64,000 bases of DNA from Acholeplasma equirhinis (GTDB taxonomy: Bacteria; Bacillota_I; Bacilli_A; Acholeplasmatales; Acholeplasmataceae): the NCBI RefSeq assembly GCF_017052655.1, contig NZ_JAFIDC010000001.1, forward strand, positions 1,116,001 to 1,180,000. Direction: 5' to 3'. Positions within the stretch are counted from its first letter, which is position 1; each line of letters opens with the position of its first letter. A program made the translations under genes and the position numbers. The notes beneath the pieces are model-generated. The model was not told the origin of the DNA, did not search any database, and saw nothing but the letters and a program-made list of their open reading frames with translations. This document shows positions 4,552 to 60,621 of this stretch, piece by piece.

Positions 4552-4917
4552 TCACCCTAGTTTAATTAAACTAACACCAATTTTAATTAATTCTTCTAAT
4601 CTTTGTTCATCTTTCATTGAGAGATATCCAACTAAACTTTCAAATCCAGTTGCTTGTTGATATGTCACAATACTTAAATTCTTTCTAGAAAAATGAGCAG
4701 CATTTCTACCTTTTTTATAAGCTTCTTGCTCTTCTAAGGTTAAAAGGTTGTTTTCTAGAAAATGAGACATCATGAACTCTTGTGCTTTACTGGATGTTAA
4801 TTTGACTTTGAGTTTATGAAGTTGATCTACTTTGGTATAACCTAATGAAAGTAAATACTTTCTAACCCAAAGTTCATAATATGCATCACCTAAGAAGGCG
4901 AGTGATAATCCGTTCAA
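4552..4917 (-). CDS. mrnC: Mini-ribonuclease III (MrnC)
   Basis: Double-strand-specific ribonuclease that matures 23S rRNA ends in Firmicutes. It is an RNase III catalytic domain without a dsRNA-binding domain, 121 residues. LAFLGDAYYELWVR near the N terminus is the catalytic signature; RNAAHFSRKN follows near 71. TTG at 4917 is the likely start, with GGATGG correctly spaced inside the end of cysS. The gene sits directly after cysS as in Bacillus. Confidence 0.9.
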   Translation of the reverse strand: MNGLSLAFLGDAYYELWVRKYLLSLGYTKVDQLHKLKVKLTSSKAQEFMMSHFLENNLLTLEEQEAYKKGRNAAHFSRKNLSIVTYQQATGFESLVGYLSMKDEQRLEELIKIGVSLIKLG

Positions 4918-4918
4918 A

Positions 4919-6232
4919 TTAAATCCATCCCTTTTGACTTAAAATGTTTCTTAATTCATCTGCTTTTGCAAAATCTTTATTGTTTCTAGCATTTAACCAG
5001 TCTTCATAAGTTTTTAAGTCTTTTTGTTCTGGTTCATTGATTTTAGGTTCTACACCTAAAACATTTAAGATACCTTTAAGTTTAATAAATAATTCGATAT
5101 CTTCTTCCTTATTTAAATCCTTAACGGTTGCATCAATTAAGGAAATCACATTTGGTGTATCAAAATCATTATCCATTAAAGTAATAAGGTCATTTAGACG
5201 TTTTTGATAATCCTCTATGTTAAATTTAGTATTCATTCCCATCGATCTAAATTTAAAGTTCCACTTATTAAGTGTATTTGATATTTTATCATAGGTTTTT
5301 TGGTATTGTTCCATTAACTCAGTTGTAAATGCAATCGGTGCTCTATAATGATGTGCTAGTAACATTAAGCGATAAGCACCACCATCATAATTTTCTAATA
5401 AATCTTTAAGTTTAATGTCGTTTCCTAAAGATTTACTCATCTTTTCTTTACCAAAGTCAAGACGTCCAACATGCATCCAATATGTTGCAAGATGATGATG
5501 ATCATGTGCCATAGACTGCGCAATTTCATTTTCATGGTGTGGGAACTTTAAATCAAAGCCACCCCCATGAATATCTAAGTTATCACCAAAGAGTTTATTG
5601 TTCATGACAACACACTCAGTATGCCAACCCGGACGACCCATACCCCATGGTGAATCATATTTGATCCCTTCATCTGTTATTTTCCATAATGTAAAGTCAA
5701 CTGAATCGTGTTTATCAGATTCATTTTCAATACGCACATTACTGATTAAATCTTCAATCTTACGATTTGATAACACACCATAATCTTTTAGCTTTGAAAC
5801 ATCAAAATAAACTCCGCTTGGAACTTGATATGCAAAACCATTTTCGATTAAATCACTAATAAACTCAATCATCTCAGGAATATAATCTGTTGCATATGGT
5901 GTTTCATCAAAAGGTTTGGCACCAACTCTTTTAATCACTTCAAAAAATTGGTCTGCATATTTTTGTGCAATTTCTTTTTCAGAAACTTTTAAATCTTTCG
6001 CTTTGTTGATAATTTTATCGTCAATATCCGTAATGTTTGATGCATAAGTTACAGAATAATTTCTAAACTCTAGGTATCTTTTAACCACATCAAAAAAGAC
6101 AACAGGACGACCATTTCCGATATGGATATTGTCATAAACTGTTGGTCCACAGACATACATATTCACATGATTTTTAGTTTTGGGTTCAAAGACTTCTATT
6201 TTGTTTGTAAGTGAATTGTATATTTTTAACAT
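4919..6232 (-). CDS. cysS: Cysteinyl-tRNA synthetase
   Basis: Charges tRNA-Cys in the cytosol. Class I enzyme of 437 residues, slightly shorter than the usual 460. Visible: zinc/substrate motif YVCGPTVYDN (27-36), HIGN signature in NIHIGNGRP, the zinc ligands in GWHTECV and HHENEIAQ, and KMSKSLGN for ATP binding. AAGAAAGG is spaced correctly before ATG 6232. It is followed without a gap by mrnC. Confidence 0.97.
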   Translation of the reverse strand: MLKIYNSLTNKIEVFEPKTKNHVNMYVCGPTVYDNIHIGNGRPVVFFDVVKRYLEFRNYSVTYASNITDIDDKIINKAKDLKVSEKEIAQKYADQFFEVIKRVGAKPFDETPYATDYIPEMIEFISDLIENGFAYQVPSGVYFDVSKLKDYGVLSNRKIEDLISNVRIENESDKHDSVDFTLWKITDEGIKYDSPWGMGRPGWHTECVVMNNKLFGDNLDIHGGGFDLKFPHHENEIAQSMAHDHHHLATYWMHVGRLDFGKEKMSKSLGNDIKLKDLLENYDGGAYRLMLLAHHYRAPIAFTTELMEQYQKTYDKISNTLNKWNFKFRSMGMNTKFNIEDYQKRLNDLITLMDNDFDTPNVISLIDATVKDLNKEEDIELFIKLKGILNVLGVEPKINEPEQKDLKTYEDWLNARNNKDFAKADELRNILSQKGWI

Positions 6233-16528: not shown

Positions 16529-16742
16529 AAAAAAATCCTTAGATTTAAAAACAATCTAAGGACGAATTGTTATCCGCGGTACCACCTTAGTTCTAGATTA
16601 CTCTAGCCCTCTTAACTTGTAACGTAAGTAACCCCGTCTTACTCTACCTATCGAATAAGATACTCAAAAGCCATAAGTATAGTTCTTATATCTCTTCTCA
16701 CCAGCCAGAGACTCTCTTAAATAATTACTATACGACCTCTTT
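16529..16742 (-). ncRNA. T-box leader of metG (methionine specifier)
   Basis: Cis-regulatory RNA that reads uncharged tRNA-Met. Visible on the minus strand: Stem I with GGCTGGTGAGAAG, a specifier ATG followed by G (16674-16672), the T-box core AAGGTGGTACCGCGG (16588-16574), and a terminator CCTTAGATTG / AAATCTAAGG followed by seven T (16562-16529). With uncharged tRNA bound, the T-box region would form the antiterminator and metG is transcribed. Confidence 0.93.
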
Positions 16743-16769
16743 ATCATCGTATGATTTAATTCACTTATT

Positions 16770-43238: not shown

Positions 43239-43547
43239 TTATTTCTTAAGGACGATGTCAATACCTGATGGTAAATCAATTCTCATTAAAGCATCAATTG
43301 TCTTAGAGTTTGGATCTAAGATTTGAATTAATCTCTTGTGCGTTCTTCTTTCGAATTGCTCACGTGAATCTTTGTTTACGTGAGGGCTTCGTAAGATTGT
43401 GAAGACTTCTTTCTTAGTTGGAAGTGGAATTGGACCTTGTACAGTAGCACCTGTCTTTTCAACACTTTCAACAATCTTCTTAGCAGCTTGATCGATTAAT
43501 CTGTGATCATATGCCTTTAAACTGATTTTGATAATTTCTTTTGCCAT
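43239..43547 (-). CDS. rpsJ: 30S ribosomal protein S10
   Basis: 102 residues, head of the small subunit and NusB partner in antitermination. [40 protein letters not shown] and [14 protein letters not shown] are signatures. First gene of the superoperon; AAGGAG before ATG 43547. Confidence 0.98.
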
Positions 43548-43758: not shown

Positions 43759-45168
43759 TTAATTTACATCAAAATTCTGAATTATCTCTAGATCGTTTTG
43801 AATATCAACACTATAGTATTCGAATAATCTAAAATTTACCACAATGTATTTAAATCCCAGTTCTAAAATTTTACTATAATATTTCTTTTCTTGGATAGTT
43901 GTACCTGTAAGGTACATTTCAACATGTTTGATTTCAGTCTTCTCTTTGACTTCCATCAATTCTGTTAAAAATGTATCTTCTTTCGTTTTTTCATCGACAA
44001 TTTCGCCATAAAGTCTTTCTGTGTCAATGATTGTAAAATCTGAATGTTTGAATAATTCTAAGTTCTCATATCCTAAATCGTGTTCAATATTAAACCCAAT
44101 TGGAACTTCCGTTTGATAGTTTTCTTTAATAATTGTCATAATAATTTGTCTAAGTTTTTCGAAGTGGTATTCTGAGGCACTGTGTGGAATTGTTATCTTT
44201 AAATGATTATGTGGGTGACTAAAGATTGCACGTAATTCCTCTATATACATCGTATAAAATCTAGATAACGTTTCCTGATCAACGATAAAATCATCATCTA
44301 GTCTATGATAATAGATTAAAATATCTAGCCTCGGTAATGTAATTAAAATTTCAGAATCTTTATATATTCTATATAAACTTTTATAAAACTGGATACGTTC
44401 AACATAATCAAGCAACCCATCATTTTTTAAATAAGCTTTCTCGGGTTCAACGAAAATAAAATCTAACTTGCTATTTTGCATCAGACTAAGTACTTCCAAA
44501 TCAAAAACTTCAACACCTAATTGCGTAAGACTTTGAATGGTTGAACCCGCATATTTTAATTCATTTTTAAGATCTTTAACACACTCGTTAGTTGCTAAAT
44601 TAAGGATGTAAAATCTGTTGAATTCAAGCTGTTCTTTCGTAATAACAAAAGGAACTAGGCTAAAAATTTGTTGATACAAAAGTCTATTTTTAGGGAATTC
44701 TTCAAAAACAATACCATTAATTTTGTCTTTAATTTCAAGGATAATATAGAGGTTTGGTTCTTCTATTTTCACCAATACATTTCCCTTAAAATCGAGTTTA
44801 AAAGTGAGCATTTTTGCCTCAAATTTACTTAAAATTCGATCTAAAAATGGTCGGTAAATTGTCTCATTTTGATATAAAAAAAGGCTCTTTTTTCTTAATA
44901 TATCTAGGTATCGATTTAAAGTTATACCTTCCTCAAAATACATTAAAAATGATGTTTTAAAGCTTTCAAGTAAGATATTACACGTATAAAGCTCCTTTAA
45001 ACTTGTTGCATGAAAAAAACCAAGTTCATAGCGTCTTTTAATATGATTTATCTCTTGTTCTATGATGTCTAGCATGAATTTTTCCAAATGAATCTTGTCA
45101 TTTAATATATATTCATGACTGTTTTGAATACTTTTTAAAAATCCTTTAATGTAATTTGTTTGTAACAT
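43759..45168 (-). CDS. Enzyme I (PTS)-like protein, apparently catalytically dead
   Basis: 469 residues, not recognised as a named family. The layout follows PTS Enzyme I: helical N-terminal part (1-120), a beta-rich swivel-like part (127-195), and a TIM-barrel-like part (230-469). Matches to Enzyme I: FYKSLYRIYKDSEILITL for the stretch before RTLDIGGDK; ELRAIFSHPHNHLKITIP for QLRAILRAS..G.LRIMFP; VPIGFNIEHD for IEIGVMVETP; SDFTIIDTERL for VDFFSIGTNDL; EMYLTGTTIQE for GMCGELAGD. The phosphohistidine loop (GGRTSHTAI) and active-site Cys (Tyr419 here) are missing. Role unknown. It lies just before rpsJ. Confidence 0.6.
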   Translation of the reverse strand: MLQTNYIKGFLKSIQNSHEYILNDKIHLEKFMLDIIEQEINHIKRRYELGFFHATSLKELYTCNILLESFKTSFLMYFEEGITLNRYLDILRKKSLFLYQNETIYRPFLDRILSKFEAKMLTFKLDFKGNVLVKIEEPNLYIILEIKDKINGIVFEEFPKNRLLYQQIFSLVPFVITKEQLEFNRFYILNLATNECVKDLKNELKYAGSTIQSLTQLGVEVFDLEVLSLMQNSKLDFIFVEPEKAYLKNDGLLDYVERIQFYKSLYRIYKDSEILITLPRLDILIYYHRLDDDFIVDQETLSRFYTMYIEELRAIFSHPHNHLKITIPHSASEYHFEKLRQIIMTIIKENYQTEVPIGFNIEHDLGYENLELFKHSDFTIIDTERLYGEIVDEKTKEDTFLTELMEVKEKTEIKHVEMYLTGTTIQEKKYYSKILELGFKYIVVNFRLFEYYSVDIQNDLEIIQNFDVN

Positions 45169-45262: not shown

Positions 45263-45700
45263 TTAATATCTTTGTTTGAAATATACCATGATATTCTCAA
45301 GGGATTTCATTAAGACTTCATCTTTATCAATTTCTAAATCCTTAAAGACTGAATTAATCATTTCATCATGAAACTCATCATGTATTTTTAATACATTCAG
45401 TGCAAGATCTGTAAGTTTTAAATATACCTTTCTTCTATCTGATTCATCCGTATATCTATAAACATATTTTTTACGTGCAAGAATGTTAATAGCAGTCGTT
45501 AAAGTACCTAATGTGATACGAAGTTTTTTAGCAACCTCACCCATTGTTGGAACTTCTGTGTTTTTAATTGCTTCTAAAACATGCACTTCACTCATTGAAA
45601 TTGTGACTCCGCGTTCTTTAAGTGTGCGTTCTTCGATTGATAAAATTTGATTGAAAACATCGACTAATAAGGTATTGATGATTTCTTTTGATGATGCCAT
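45263..45700 (-). CDS. MarR-family transcriptional regulator (FabT-like)
   Basis: Winged-helix DNA-binding repressor of 145 residues. Helix-turn-helix about 52-75 (TMGEVAKKLRITLGTLTTAI) and wing RYTDESDRRKVYLKLT (81-96) are standard for MarR. It lies 10 bases after degV, a fatty-acid-binding family gene, and a FabT-type operator stands before degV (46578-46594). Together these suggest control of fatty-acid handling; the effector (acyl-ACP in FabT) is inferred. Confidence 0.8.
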   Translation of the reverse strand: MASSKEIINTLLVDVFNQILSIEERTLKERGVTISMSEVHVLEAIKNTEVPTMGEVAKKLRITLGTLTTAINILARKKYVYRYTDESDRRKVYLKLTDLALNVLKIHDEFHDEMINSVFKDLEIDKDEVLMKSLENIMVYFKQRY

Positions 45701-45710
45701 GAAATGCCTC

Positions 45711-46559
45711 CTATTTTAATGAATACCCCATACCTAAAGTTCCAGGACCTGCATGTGCCCCGACAACTGGTGTCAGTGGATAAAGTGTTACCTTCGCTCC
45801 AGGTCTTGCAGTTTCAATCTCTTTTTTGAAGTATTCTGCTTTATCTAAATTTGTTGTATATGCAATAAAGAAATCAACATCTTTGTCTTTTGTTTCAGTT
45901 AACATGACTTCTAAGATTCTTTGCTGCGCTTTTGTTGTTGTACGAATCTTTTCAAATGGTTTTAAAGATCCATCTTCCATAATTTTTAATAATGGTTTGA
46001 TTTTTAAAAGGGTACCAAGCAAACCCGCAGTCGATGATAATCGACCATTTTTCACAAGATATTTAAGTGTATCGACAAGTACATATATTTTTGTATTGTC
46101 TCTTACAAATTCTAATTTCTTAATAATTTCTTGTAGTGAAGCTCCATTTTTTACCATACGTAGCGCATGATCAACTAAGATTGCTTCTCCATATGATACA
46201 CTTTTTGAATCAAAAACTTCAACCTTTAAACCAGGAACTAAATCTTTTGCAAGAATTGCACCTTGGTAGGTTCCACTTAATTTAGACGAAAGTGTAATCA
46301 CTAAAAGTTCTTCATACCCATTAGCTTTTACTTTTTCATATAATTCGGCGAATTGCCCTGTTGATACTTGGGATGTATGGATATCTGCATCGGGTTTTGC
46401 AAGCATCATTTGATAGAAATCATCTGCTGTGATTTCTTCATAATCCACATATTCTTTACGGTCAAATGTTACAGTTAAACGTGCTGTGAGGCAATCTTTT
46501 TTTGCATCGATATAATCAATCCCAGACGTCGAAGTAACTGCGATAGCAATTTTCTTCAT
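45711..46559 (-). CDS. DegV family fatty-acid-binding protein
   Basis: 282 residues. DegV proteins bind a fatty acid and some (FakB) present it to the kinase FakA. IAVTSTSGIDYIDAKKD, IHTSQVSTGQFAELYEK and LVITLSSKLSGTYQGAILA are diagnostic; PVVGAHAGPGTLG ends the fold. No fakA is in the window. Transcribed with the MarR gene from the promoter at 46595-46600. Confidence 0.9.
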   Translation of the reverse strand: MKKIAIAVTSTSGIDYIDAKKDCLTARLTVTFDRKEYVDYEEITADDFYQMMLAKPDADIHTSQVSTGQFAELYEKVKANGYEELLVITLSSKLSGTYQGAILAKDLVPGLKVEVFDSKSVSYGEAILVDHALRMVKNGASLQEIIKKLEFVRDNTKIYVLVDTLKYLVKNGRLSSTAGLLGTLLKIKPLLKIMEDGSLKPFEKIRTTTKAQQRILEVMLTETKDKDVDFFIAYTTNLDKAEYFKKEIETARPGAKVTLYPLTPVVGAHAGPGTLGMGYSLK

Positions 46560-58148: not shown

Positions 58149-59684
58149 CTAGAGTATGTATAGTAATTTTTCTAAATCATCAATCATATAGTCAGGACGT
58201 GCAGCCATTACTTTATCATAGTGAATAGAGTAAGATACGCCAACACTTTTGACACCTGCTGCTTTTGCAGCTTCAATATCCATTGAGTGATCACCAATAT
58301 AGATTGCATTTGCTGGATGTGCTTTTAAACTTTCCAAAGCTTTCATAATTGGTTCTTTATCTGGTTTGTGCTTAGTGACATCATCACTACCAATAATGAC
58401 ATCTATAAATTGTAATAAGTCATTTTGTTCTAACCCAAGCGCACAAACTTCTTTTTTCTTGCTAGATACAATACCAATTAAGTAACCTGCATCTTTTAAT
58501 GCCGTTAAAGTTTCTTTTGCATGAGGATACGCATTGACACCTTTTTCATGGTTAGCAAGATTCGTCTTTCGATAGAATTCAATCATTTCTTCAATCTTTT
58601 TAGGATTTGGTTCATACCATGAAAATGAGTGTTGTAGTGTTGGTCCAACAAAAGCTTTTAATTCATCTTCTGTAAATGTTTTACTTGGGAAGTATTTTTT
58701 AAAGGTTTGACGGATGTTATCGTAAATGAGATCGATAGTATCAAGTAAAGTACCATCTAAATCAAATAGAACAACCTTTTTACCATAGTCACTGTAATAA
58801 CCTTCATCAACTTTCATTAAACGTTTTCCAAAGTATACGACAAGCCCACCTAAAATAAAGAGGACGGAGGTTGCAATCGAAACCGGAATTCCAAAGAGCA
58901 TTAATGGTTCATCAACACCACTTTGCATTCTTAAGATTTCAGTTGGAATACGACCAACACCATACCATAATAAGTAGAACGCTAAGATATCACCAAGTTT
59001 AAATGTTCTTTTTCTTCTTAAAATTAAGATAATGACTAAACCAATTAGATTCCAAACACTTTCATAAAGGAAGGTTGGATGACGATAAGCACCATTGATA
59101 AACATTTGATCTTTAACAAATGGAGGCAGCCAATCTGCATTATCTAAAACAGGTCCGTATAATTCACGGTTCATGAAGTTACCCCAACGGCCTAATGTTT
59201 GACCAATTAAAAATCCAGGTGCAACAACATCATAAATAAACCAATGACTAATTTTCTTACGTTTCGCAAAAGGAATTATGACTAAGAATGTCACGATAAC
59301 GGCCCCATGAATACCTAATCCACCTTCTGTGAAATTAAGCATACGTAAGAAATCACCATTATAACGATCTAGGTTAAATAGCACATACCAAAGTCTAGCT
59401 CCAATAATCGCGAGTGGCACACAGAGTAATAAACCATCCCATAAAATGTCAGGATTCTTACCCGCTTTTACAAACTCTCTATATGCTAAATATCCACCAA
59501 ATGTAATCCCAGTTAAAATAAATACTGCATACCATTGAACTTCCAAGCCTAGTGCTTCAATTCTAATTGCAGTTGAATCATAAGGTGCAACACCACTTGT
59601 TGCAATTAGTACAAGTAACATAAAGATAATGGAAAATCCAATATATGTATAGTAGCTTTCATATTTTTTAAAACTATTCTTCAT
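58149..59684 (-). CDS. lgt: Fusion: prolipoprotein diacylglyceryl transferase (Lgt) and HAD phosphatase (PpaX-like)
   Basis: 511 residues. Residues 1-295 are Lgt, with seven hydrophobic segments, the signature GLGIHGAVI (about 123), and GRWGNFMNRE (166-175). Residues 303-511 are a HAD phosphatase with LFDLDGTLLDT (nucleophile Asp near 308), SSKKKE and GDHSMDIEAAKAAG. In Bacillus, lgt and ppaX are separate genes following hprK; here they are one frame. ATG 59684 has AAGGAG 6 bases upstream. The domain would attach to the membrane. Confidence 0.9.
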   Translation of the reverse strand: MKNSFKKYESYYTYIGFSIIFMLLVLIATSGVAPYDSTAIRIEALGLEVQWYAVFILTGITFGGYLAYREFVKAGKNPDILWDGLLLCVPLAIIGARLWYVLFNLDRYNGDFLRMLNFTEGGLGIHGAVIVTFLVIIPFAKRKKISHWFIYDVVAPGFLIGQTLGRWGNFMNRELYGPVLDNADWLPPFVKDQMFINGAYRHPTFLYESVWNLIGLVIILILRRKRTFKLGDILAFYLLWYGVGRIPTEILRMQSGVDEPLMLFGIPVSIATSVLFILGGLVVYFGKRLMKVDEGYYSDYGKKVVLFDLDGTLLDTIDLIYDNIRQTFKKYFPSKTFTEDELKAFVGPTLQHSFSWYEPNPKKIEEMIEFYRKTNLANHEKGVNAYPHAKETLTALKDAGYLIGIVSSKKKEVCALGLEQNDLLQFIDVIIGSDDVTKHKPDKEPIMKALESLKAHPANAIYIGDHSMDIEAAKAAGVKSVGVSYSIHYDKVMAARPDYMIDDLEKLLYIL

Positions 59685-60621
59685 CATCTTCTCCTTTAGA
59701 TGCTGCTTTTAATGCAACGTTTTTAACCAGTTGTTCTGCGGCATTATATCCTAAGTACTTTAACTTTTGATTCATTGCAGCAGATTCCACTAATGTCGCA
59801 TTATTTCTACCAGGAAGGATCGGAATAGTAATCTTTGGAATTTGAGTTTCAAAGATTTGATAACTTTCTGTTTCTAATCCTAAACGATCATAGTTTTTCT
59901 TATCATCCCATTGCTCAAGTTCAATGACTAATCTTACTTTCTTGTTTTCACGGAATGCACCAGCACCTAACATTTGAACTACATCAACAATCCCAATACC
60001 TCTAATTTCTAAGTATTTTTCTAAGATTTTTGGTGCTTGTCCAATAATAATACCAGGTGCAGTTTCATAAACATCGACACGATCATCAGCAATTAAGATA
60101 TGATTTCTTTTGATTAATTCAAGTGCTGTTTCTGATTTACCAATCCCACTCTTACCAATAATTAAAGTACCCATACCATAAATATCAAGGAGTGTCCCAT
60201 GAATAGTTTTTCTTGGAGCGAGTGCACTTCTTAAATATGCATAAAGTTTTGAGTTTACCGGGGTCGTACGCTCTTTAGATTTAAAGAGCGGTACACCATA
60301 AGTATTTCCTAAATCAATAAAGTATTGTGGTACATCAACATTAACAGAGAAAATCACACATGGTGGTTGATGTTTTAAAACAGCTTCAACCCTTTCCTTT
60401 TGAGTTTTTTCATCAAGTAATTTTAAGAAATGAGATTCCTTAGAACCAATTAATAAAATACGGTCGCTATCATAAAAATCTAAGAACCCTGCGAATTCTA
60501 CCCCAGGGCGTGCAAGCATTTCAACAGATACCCTACCTTCAATACCTGCTTCACCTGCAATTAAAGTTAATTGTAACTCTTTAGCTATCTTTTTAACAGA
60601 TATACTTCTTTTTTCATCCAT
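59674..60621 (-). CDS. hprK: HPr kinase/phosphorylase
   Basis: 315 residues. Phosphorylates and dephosphorylates HPr at serine. Walker A GKSGIGKSETALEL (156-169), ADDRVDVYE, signature LEIRGIGIVDVVQMLGAGAF. Overlaps the fusion gene, the conserved hprK-lgt-ppaX order. HPr itself is not in the window. Confidence 0.95.
   Translation of the reverse strand: MDEKRSISVKKIAKELQLTLIAGEAGIEGRVSVEMLARPGVEFAGFLDFYDSDRILLIGSKESHFLKLLDEKTQKERVEAVLKHQPPCVIFSVNVDVPQYFIDLGNTYGVPLFKSKERTTPVNSKLYAYLRSALAPRKTIHGTLLDIYGMGTLIIGKSGIGKSETALELIKRNHILIADDRVDVYETAPGIIIGQAPKILEKYLEIRGIGIVDVVQMLGAGAFRENKKVRLVIELEQWDDKKNYDRLGLETESYQIFETQIPKITIPILPGRNNATLVESAAMNQKLKYLGYNAAEQLVKNVALKAASKGEDDEE

Follow-up and report, generated by a model that had tools for sequence, protein, structure and literature searches.

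The gene lying just upstream of the S10 operon in the window—here the whole stretch of 64,000 nucleotides of Acholeplasma equirhinis DNA that was analysed—encodes a 469-residue protein which is a diverged relative, and a descendant, of Enzyme I of the phosphotransferase system (PTS). We consider it probable that this gene descends from a second Enzyme I which decayed and was repurposed, and that its product now plays a non-catalytic binding role. We call this second, S10-linked Enzyme I lineage of the order EI-2, a name of our own. The gene is not a randomly decaying frame; it is under purifying selection centred on its barrel. A search of the open-licence literature returned no description of this gene or of a pseudoenzyme form of Enzyme I.

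The open reading frame is real: it starts with an ATG at 45168 and occupies exactly 45168..43759 on the minus strand. It stands between marR and degV upstream and rpsJ of the S10 operon downstream. The features of the window used below are the following.

43759..45168, minus strand: dead Enzyme I-like gene (EI-2 lineage), 469 aa; from the ORF, its translation, predicted fold, profile homology and orthologues
44785..45096, minus strand: residues 25-128, predicted helical domain that corresponds to the alpha (HPr-binding) domain of Enzyme I; from predicted helices and the full-length alignment to 2hwg; least conserved part
44623..44784, minus strand: residues 129-182, what is left of the phosphohistidine (swivel) domain, reduced and without its loop and His; from R at the His189 position, hhalign columns, predicted strands and helices
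43777..44526, minus strand: residues 215-464, TIM barrel matching the C-terminal domain of Enzyme I, most constrained part; from the model, fold search, conservation and dN/dS
43239..43547, minus strand: rpsJ (S10), with which the S10 operon opens; 211 bp separate it from the Enzyme I-like gene upstream
45263..45700, minus strand: MarR-family regulator, conserved upstream neighbour (Pfam MarR 4.3e-11; synteny)
45711..46559, minus strand: DegV-family protein, conserved upstream neighbour (Pfam DegV 5.7e-74; synteny)
59674..60621, minus strand: hprK, HPr kinase/phosphorylase, residual PTS regulation (Pfam Hpr_kinase_C 3.3e-66, Hpr_kinase_N 1.6e-33)

Between the Enzyme I-like gene and rpsJ, an Rfam search gave no match to an RNA element, and promoter-like and terminator-like sites were no commoner than in shuffled sequences. 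The hprK gene, which a sequence-only reading of this DNA had placed at 59.7-60.6 kb, is indeed recognised there by Pfam; no evidence links it to the Enzyme I-like gene. Elsewhere in the window, a T-box leader was found at 16555-16756 on the minus strand (116 bits, E 5e-25).

A dead descendant of Enzyme I

The single 469-residue protein finds no match in Pfam, NCBIfam or the PDB sequences. The three Enzyme I families PF05524, PF00391 and PF02896, against which the sequence-only reading had proposed to check it, are thus not recognised in it; all three are recognised in its intact EI-2 relatives (13 of 13 proteins). A profile restricted to the genus likewise found no Enzyme I among the PDB sequences. 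Since neither search reached Enzyme I, homology was built through intermediates and the predicted fold. A profile of seven orthologues of the genus aligns with the longer members of the family over 447 columns, nearly its whole length (E 4e-28), and is co-linear with intact EI-2 of the sister families over 328 columns, which begin in the swivel domain and run to the barrel's end (hhalign probability 99, E 6e-18). With canonical Enzyme I the match of this profile is weak but still co-linear (hhalign probability 63, E 7e-5).

The predicted fold leads to the same family. We built an AlphaFold2 model from three sequences, the window protein and two orthologues; its mean pLDDT is 62, with values mostly of 70-90 in the barrel and moderate confidence outside it. 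The best PDB matches of this model in Foldseek are full-length Enzymes I (2l5h, 2hwg, 2kx9, 2wqd and 2hro, E 3e-10 to 1e-8). A second structural aligner gives a Z of about 20 to Enzyme I, with 347 residues (22-463 of the model) aligned to 2hwg. The helical, swivel and TIM-barrel order of Enzyme I, already proposed from the sequence, is found again in the predicted model.

Might the protein be an unrelated TIM barrel merely resembling Enzyme I? The silence of Pfam and of the genus-only profile could be read in this way, and other TIM barrels also score in the fold search. When the barrel is compared alone, PEP synthase and pyruvate phosphate dikinase, which share a related swivel domain and PEP-binding barrel, score as well as Enzyme I. 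These two enzymes carry an ATP-grasp domain where Enzyme I has its helical domain, and wherever an alignment takes in the helical domain, its target is Enzyme I. As the intermediates lie at one and the same locus, with E values of 4e-28 and 6e-18, and as the three domains align in order to 2hwg, we hold an unrelated barrel to be very improbable.

If the architecture of Enzyme I is kept, its chemistry is not. Nine active-site residues were checked in the window protein, and a glutamate alone is conserved. The disappearance of the phosphohistidine loop and of the active-site cysteine, claimed from the sequence, is borne out: an arginine stands at the His189 position in a TSHxAI loop that has become unrecognisable, and the C502 position is occupied by a threonine. 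This threonine is T421 by alignment, and not Tyr419 as first read; orthologues have T, I, V or M there. In the PEP- and Mg-binding set (R296, R332, R358, E431, N454, D455 and R465), E431 is the sole residue kept, so that the arginines binding the PEP phosphate are lost too. The corresponding residue, E362, is the Glu of the IGFNIE motif; its conservation holds for the window protein but does not extend to all orthologues, which have E, D or N. Besides, the swivel domain is reduced and the C-terminal end shorter than in Enzyme I. The protein nevertheless retains, like Enzyme I, the structural invariants E243, Y262, G358, G422 and G438.

The EI-2 lineage, from intact enzyme to loss

A single-sequence search found orthologues at the corresponding position in ten further genomes, and profiles extended them to most genera of the Acholeplasmataceae, a conservation which the sequence-only reading had proposed to check; a narrower alignment, run against genome contigs, gave two loci. 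Identity between orthologues is very low, 20-30%. Across the order the gene order degV-marR-ROK kinase-EI-rpsJ-rplC recurs: the rpsJ region was read in 66 genomes, and 55 of them have an Enzyme I or Enzyme I-like ORF directly upstream of rpsJ, a count from a sample enriched for matches that does not give a frequency. The pair formed by a ROK kinase and EI-2 upstream of the S10 operon occurs at all loci read in one sister family (f5) and at one in the other (f3), where EI-2 has mostly left the neighbourhood of the operon and one genome, G069, keeps ROK-EI-2-rpsJ. The gene of the window occupies this position, between marR or the ROK kinase and rpsJ.

Two further characters define the lineage. 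The NPxxGxR loop, present in every row of canonical Enzyme I, is absent from all those of both sister families and of the own family (f1). A quickly computed tree places EI-2 on one side, and the class's canonical Enzymes I on the other, of a branch with an SH-aLRT of 100; long branches inside EI-2 and the quick method make its inner order unsure. When 296 genomes sampled from the class were searched with the profile of intact EI-2, the best matches—all 15 with at least 498 bits—belonged to this order, and the next matches listed were canonical Enzymes I, at no more than 370 bits. In another family of the class, f24, two or three Enzyme I-like matches, some of them weak, were seen in each of several genomes; these are possibly other divergent copies.

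EI-2 of the sister families resembles the window protein by its locus (in f5 and in G069), by the missing loop and by being its best profile match. In contrast, it has about 490-525 residues and, except in genome G064, retains His189, R296, R332, E431, N454, D455, R465 and C502, where the window protein has just E431; position 358 is Arg in part of f5 only, and is not Arg in f3. Several of these genomes possess HPr, and EI-2 is the sole Enzyme I found in them. In G064 the catalytic residues were lost independently.

Within the own family, EI-2 is dead and its size varies: 499-624 residues in five genera, 409-486 in the own genus and in g14, and 344-393 in g4, g10 and g13. In these last mini forms the part that aligns is the barrel, and the helical domain is not aligned. 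At the end of the series the gene has gone. In G007, which belongs to the own genus, marR is followed by 456 bp and then rpsJ; the gene is also missing from the loci read in g12, g7 and g2, where ROK is retained, and from the three loci read in g8, a genus that, in view of its small genomes and of what is generally known of the family, we take to be phytoplasma-like. As it is absent at the locus in G007 and in others of the family, the gene is dispensable.

In G010 (L126:3969-4772 and 4711-5880) a degenerate ROK of 267 aa, recognised by Pfam (ROK 1.2e-11) but in which the N-terminal DxGGT motif was not seen, overlaps a dead mini EI-2, so that two decayed enzymes stand side by side. In G070 (L170:2618-4090) two ORFs, of 221 and 244 aa, make up a split EI-2; the ROK gene next to it looks whole.

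Selection, partners and a possible role

The stepwise shortening and loss across the family, together with the low identity between orthologues, could indicate a relic in slow decay, kept merely by its position upstream of an essential operon. However, the frames are open in nearly all orthologues, and in the close pair G002-G003 the dN/dS of the gene is 0.14 (NG86) or 0.12 (YN00), in a second close pair (g11) 0.07-0.08; these ratios were measured on few pairs. By domain, and from the single pair G002-G003, dN/dS is highest in the helical domain (0.29), lower in the swivel remnant (0.15) and lowest in the barrel (0.06). The invariant residues of the seven genus orthologues follow the same pattern, with one in the 104 positions of the helical domain and 25 in the barrel. 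Random decay of the frame in relatives, which would have spoken against the idea of a repurposed protein, is thus not seen.

Some of these invariants are new. D382 is invariant in the short orthologues where Enzyme I always has a glycine (Gly449 in the numbering of the own ptsI), and E311 where Enzyme I always has a glutamine (Gln371, same numbering); both switches were seen in eight short orthologues, drawn from two genera. All 20 dead proteins of the own family that are not mini forms share P279. The switched invariants in the barrel indicate a changed function. With such residues and the low dN/dS against it, a relic held by its position appears quite improbable to us, and we keep the reading of a repurposed EI-2.

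The genes around EI-2 offer an observation of their own. Between G002 and G003 (loci L006/L007), synonymous divergence is 0.55 in the Enzyme I-like gene and drops, within a few hundred bases, to 0.007 in rplC; it is 0.07 in ptsI, located elsewhere. Recombination or codon constraint could explain this drop.

Which partner could such a protein have? The search for ptsH and a true ptsI, proposed by the sequence-only reading, yielded in the own genome an intact ptsI and two genes for HPr, all away from the locus, besides hprK; a PF02378 transporter was sought there and none was found. With an intact ptsI at hand, the idea that the Enzyme I-like protein replaces a missing Enzyme I was dropped. The second HPr-like gene (G000:C2, L045:1453-1743) keeps its histidine, followed by residues unlike those of the first HPr; its immediate downstream neighbour, in a cluster of glycolytic genes, is a triosephosphate isomerase-like ORF.

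These PTS genes of the own genus, and a predicted helical domain that corresponds to the HPr-binding part of Enzyme I, would suit a dead Enzyme I regulating the PTS by binding HPr, as the sequence-only reading had suggested, or by pairing with the true Enzyme I. But this domain is precisely the least conserved, and it fails to align in the mini forms. Moreover, the three genomes of g4 (two 99% complete, one 93%) keep the gene at the locus, and neither HPr nor a PF02896 match, hence no true Enzyme I, was detected in them. In G064, with its own dead EI-2, there is no HPr match, and apart from EI-2 the PF02896 matches come down to a dikinase-sized protein. Absence from an assembly is evidence rather than proof; it nevertheless leaves the HPr-binding role unsupported, and we regard a PTS regulator as an improbable function of this protein.

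The neighbouring kinase is another candidate. ROK and EI-2 are adjacent in many of the genera read, with short overlaps in the sister families. The kinase keeps its DxGGT, Zn-binding and usually ExGH motifs, and the degenerate ROK of G010 accompanies a dead mini EI-2; EI-2 could then have come to regulate, as a subunit, the ROK-type sugar kinase whose gene directly precedes it in relatives. Against this, the ROK neighbour is gone in the own genus, and no ROK family protein was detected anywhere in G031 and G034, two incomplete assemblies of many contigs that both keep the Enzyme I-like gene. There is in our opinion a small chance that the protein serves such a kinase.

The history that we favour, a second Enzyme I that decayed and was repurposed, would run as follows. 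The sister families still have EI-2 with nearly all its catalytic residues, paired with a ROK kinase ahead of the S10 operon at the f5 loci read and at one in f3. Within the own family the protein is dead and has become shorter, while purifying selection centred on the TIM barrel retains it. It probably acts now by binding, as a sensor or a scaffold, and no longer by transferring phosphate; the barrel, re-tooled with new invariants (P279, E311 and D382 among them), would be its active part. Neither HPr nor the ROK kinase is a likely partner or ligand. A bolder proposal, which we put forward as a long shot, is that the barrel of Enzyme I was turned into a new sensor of a small molecule or protein, acting on something tied to the S10-adjacent place, and so outlived its PTS.

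A piece of the phosphotransferase system is kept in genomes where no HPr or ordinary Enzyme I can be detected, which points to an unrecognised role. Besides, pseudoenzymes are usually seen in their final state only. Here one locus offers the whole series: catalytically intact, dead at full length, shortened, reduced to the barrel, and lost. As living relatives exist at each of these steps, the timing of the loss of catalysis, and the selection retained after it, become directly testable.
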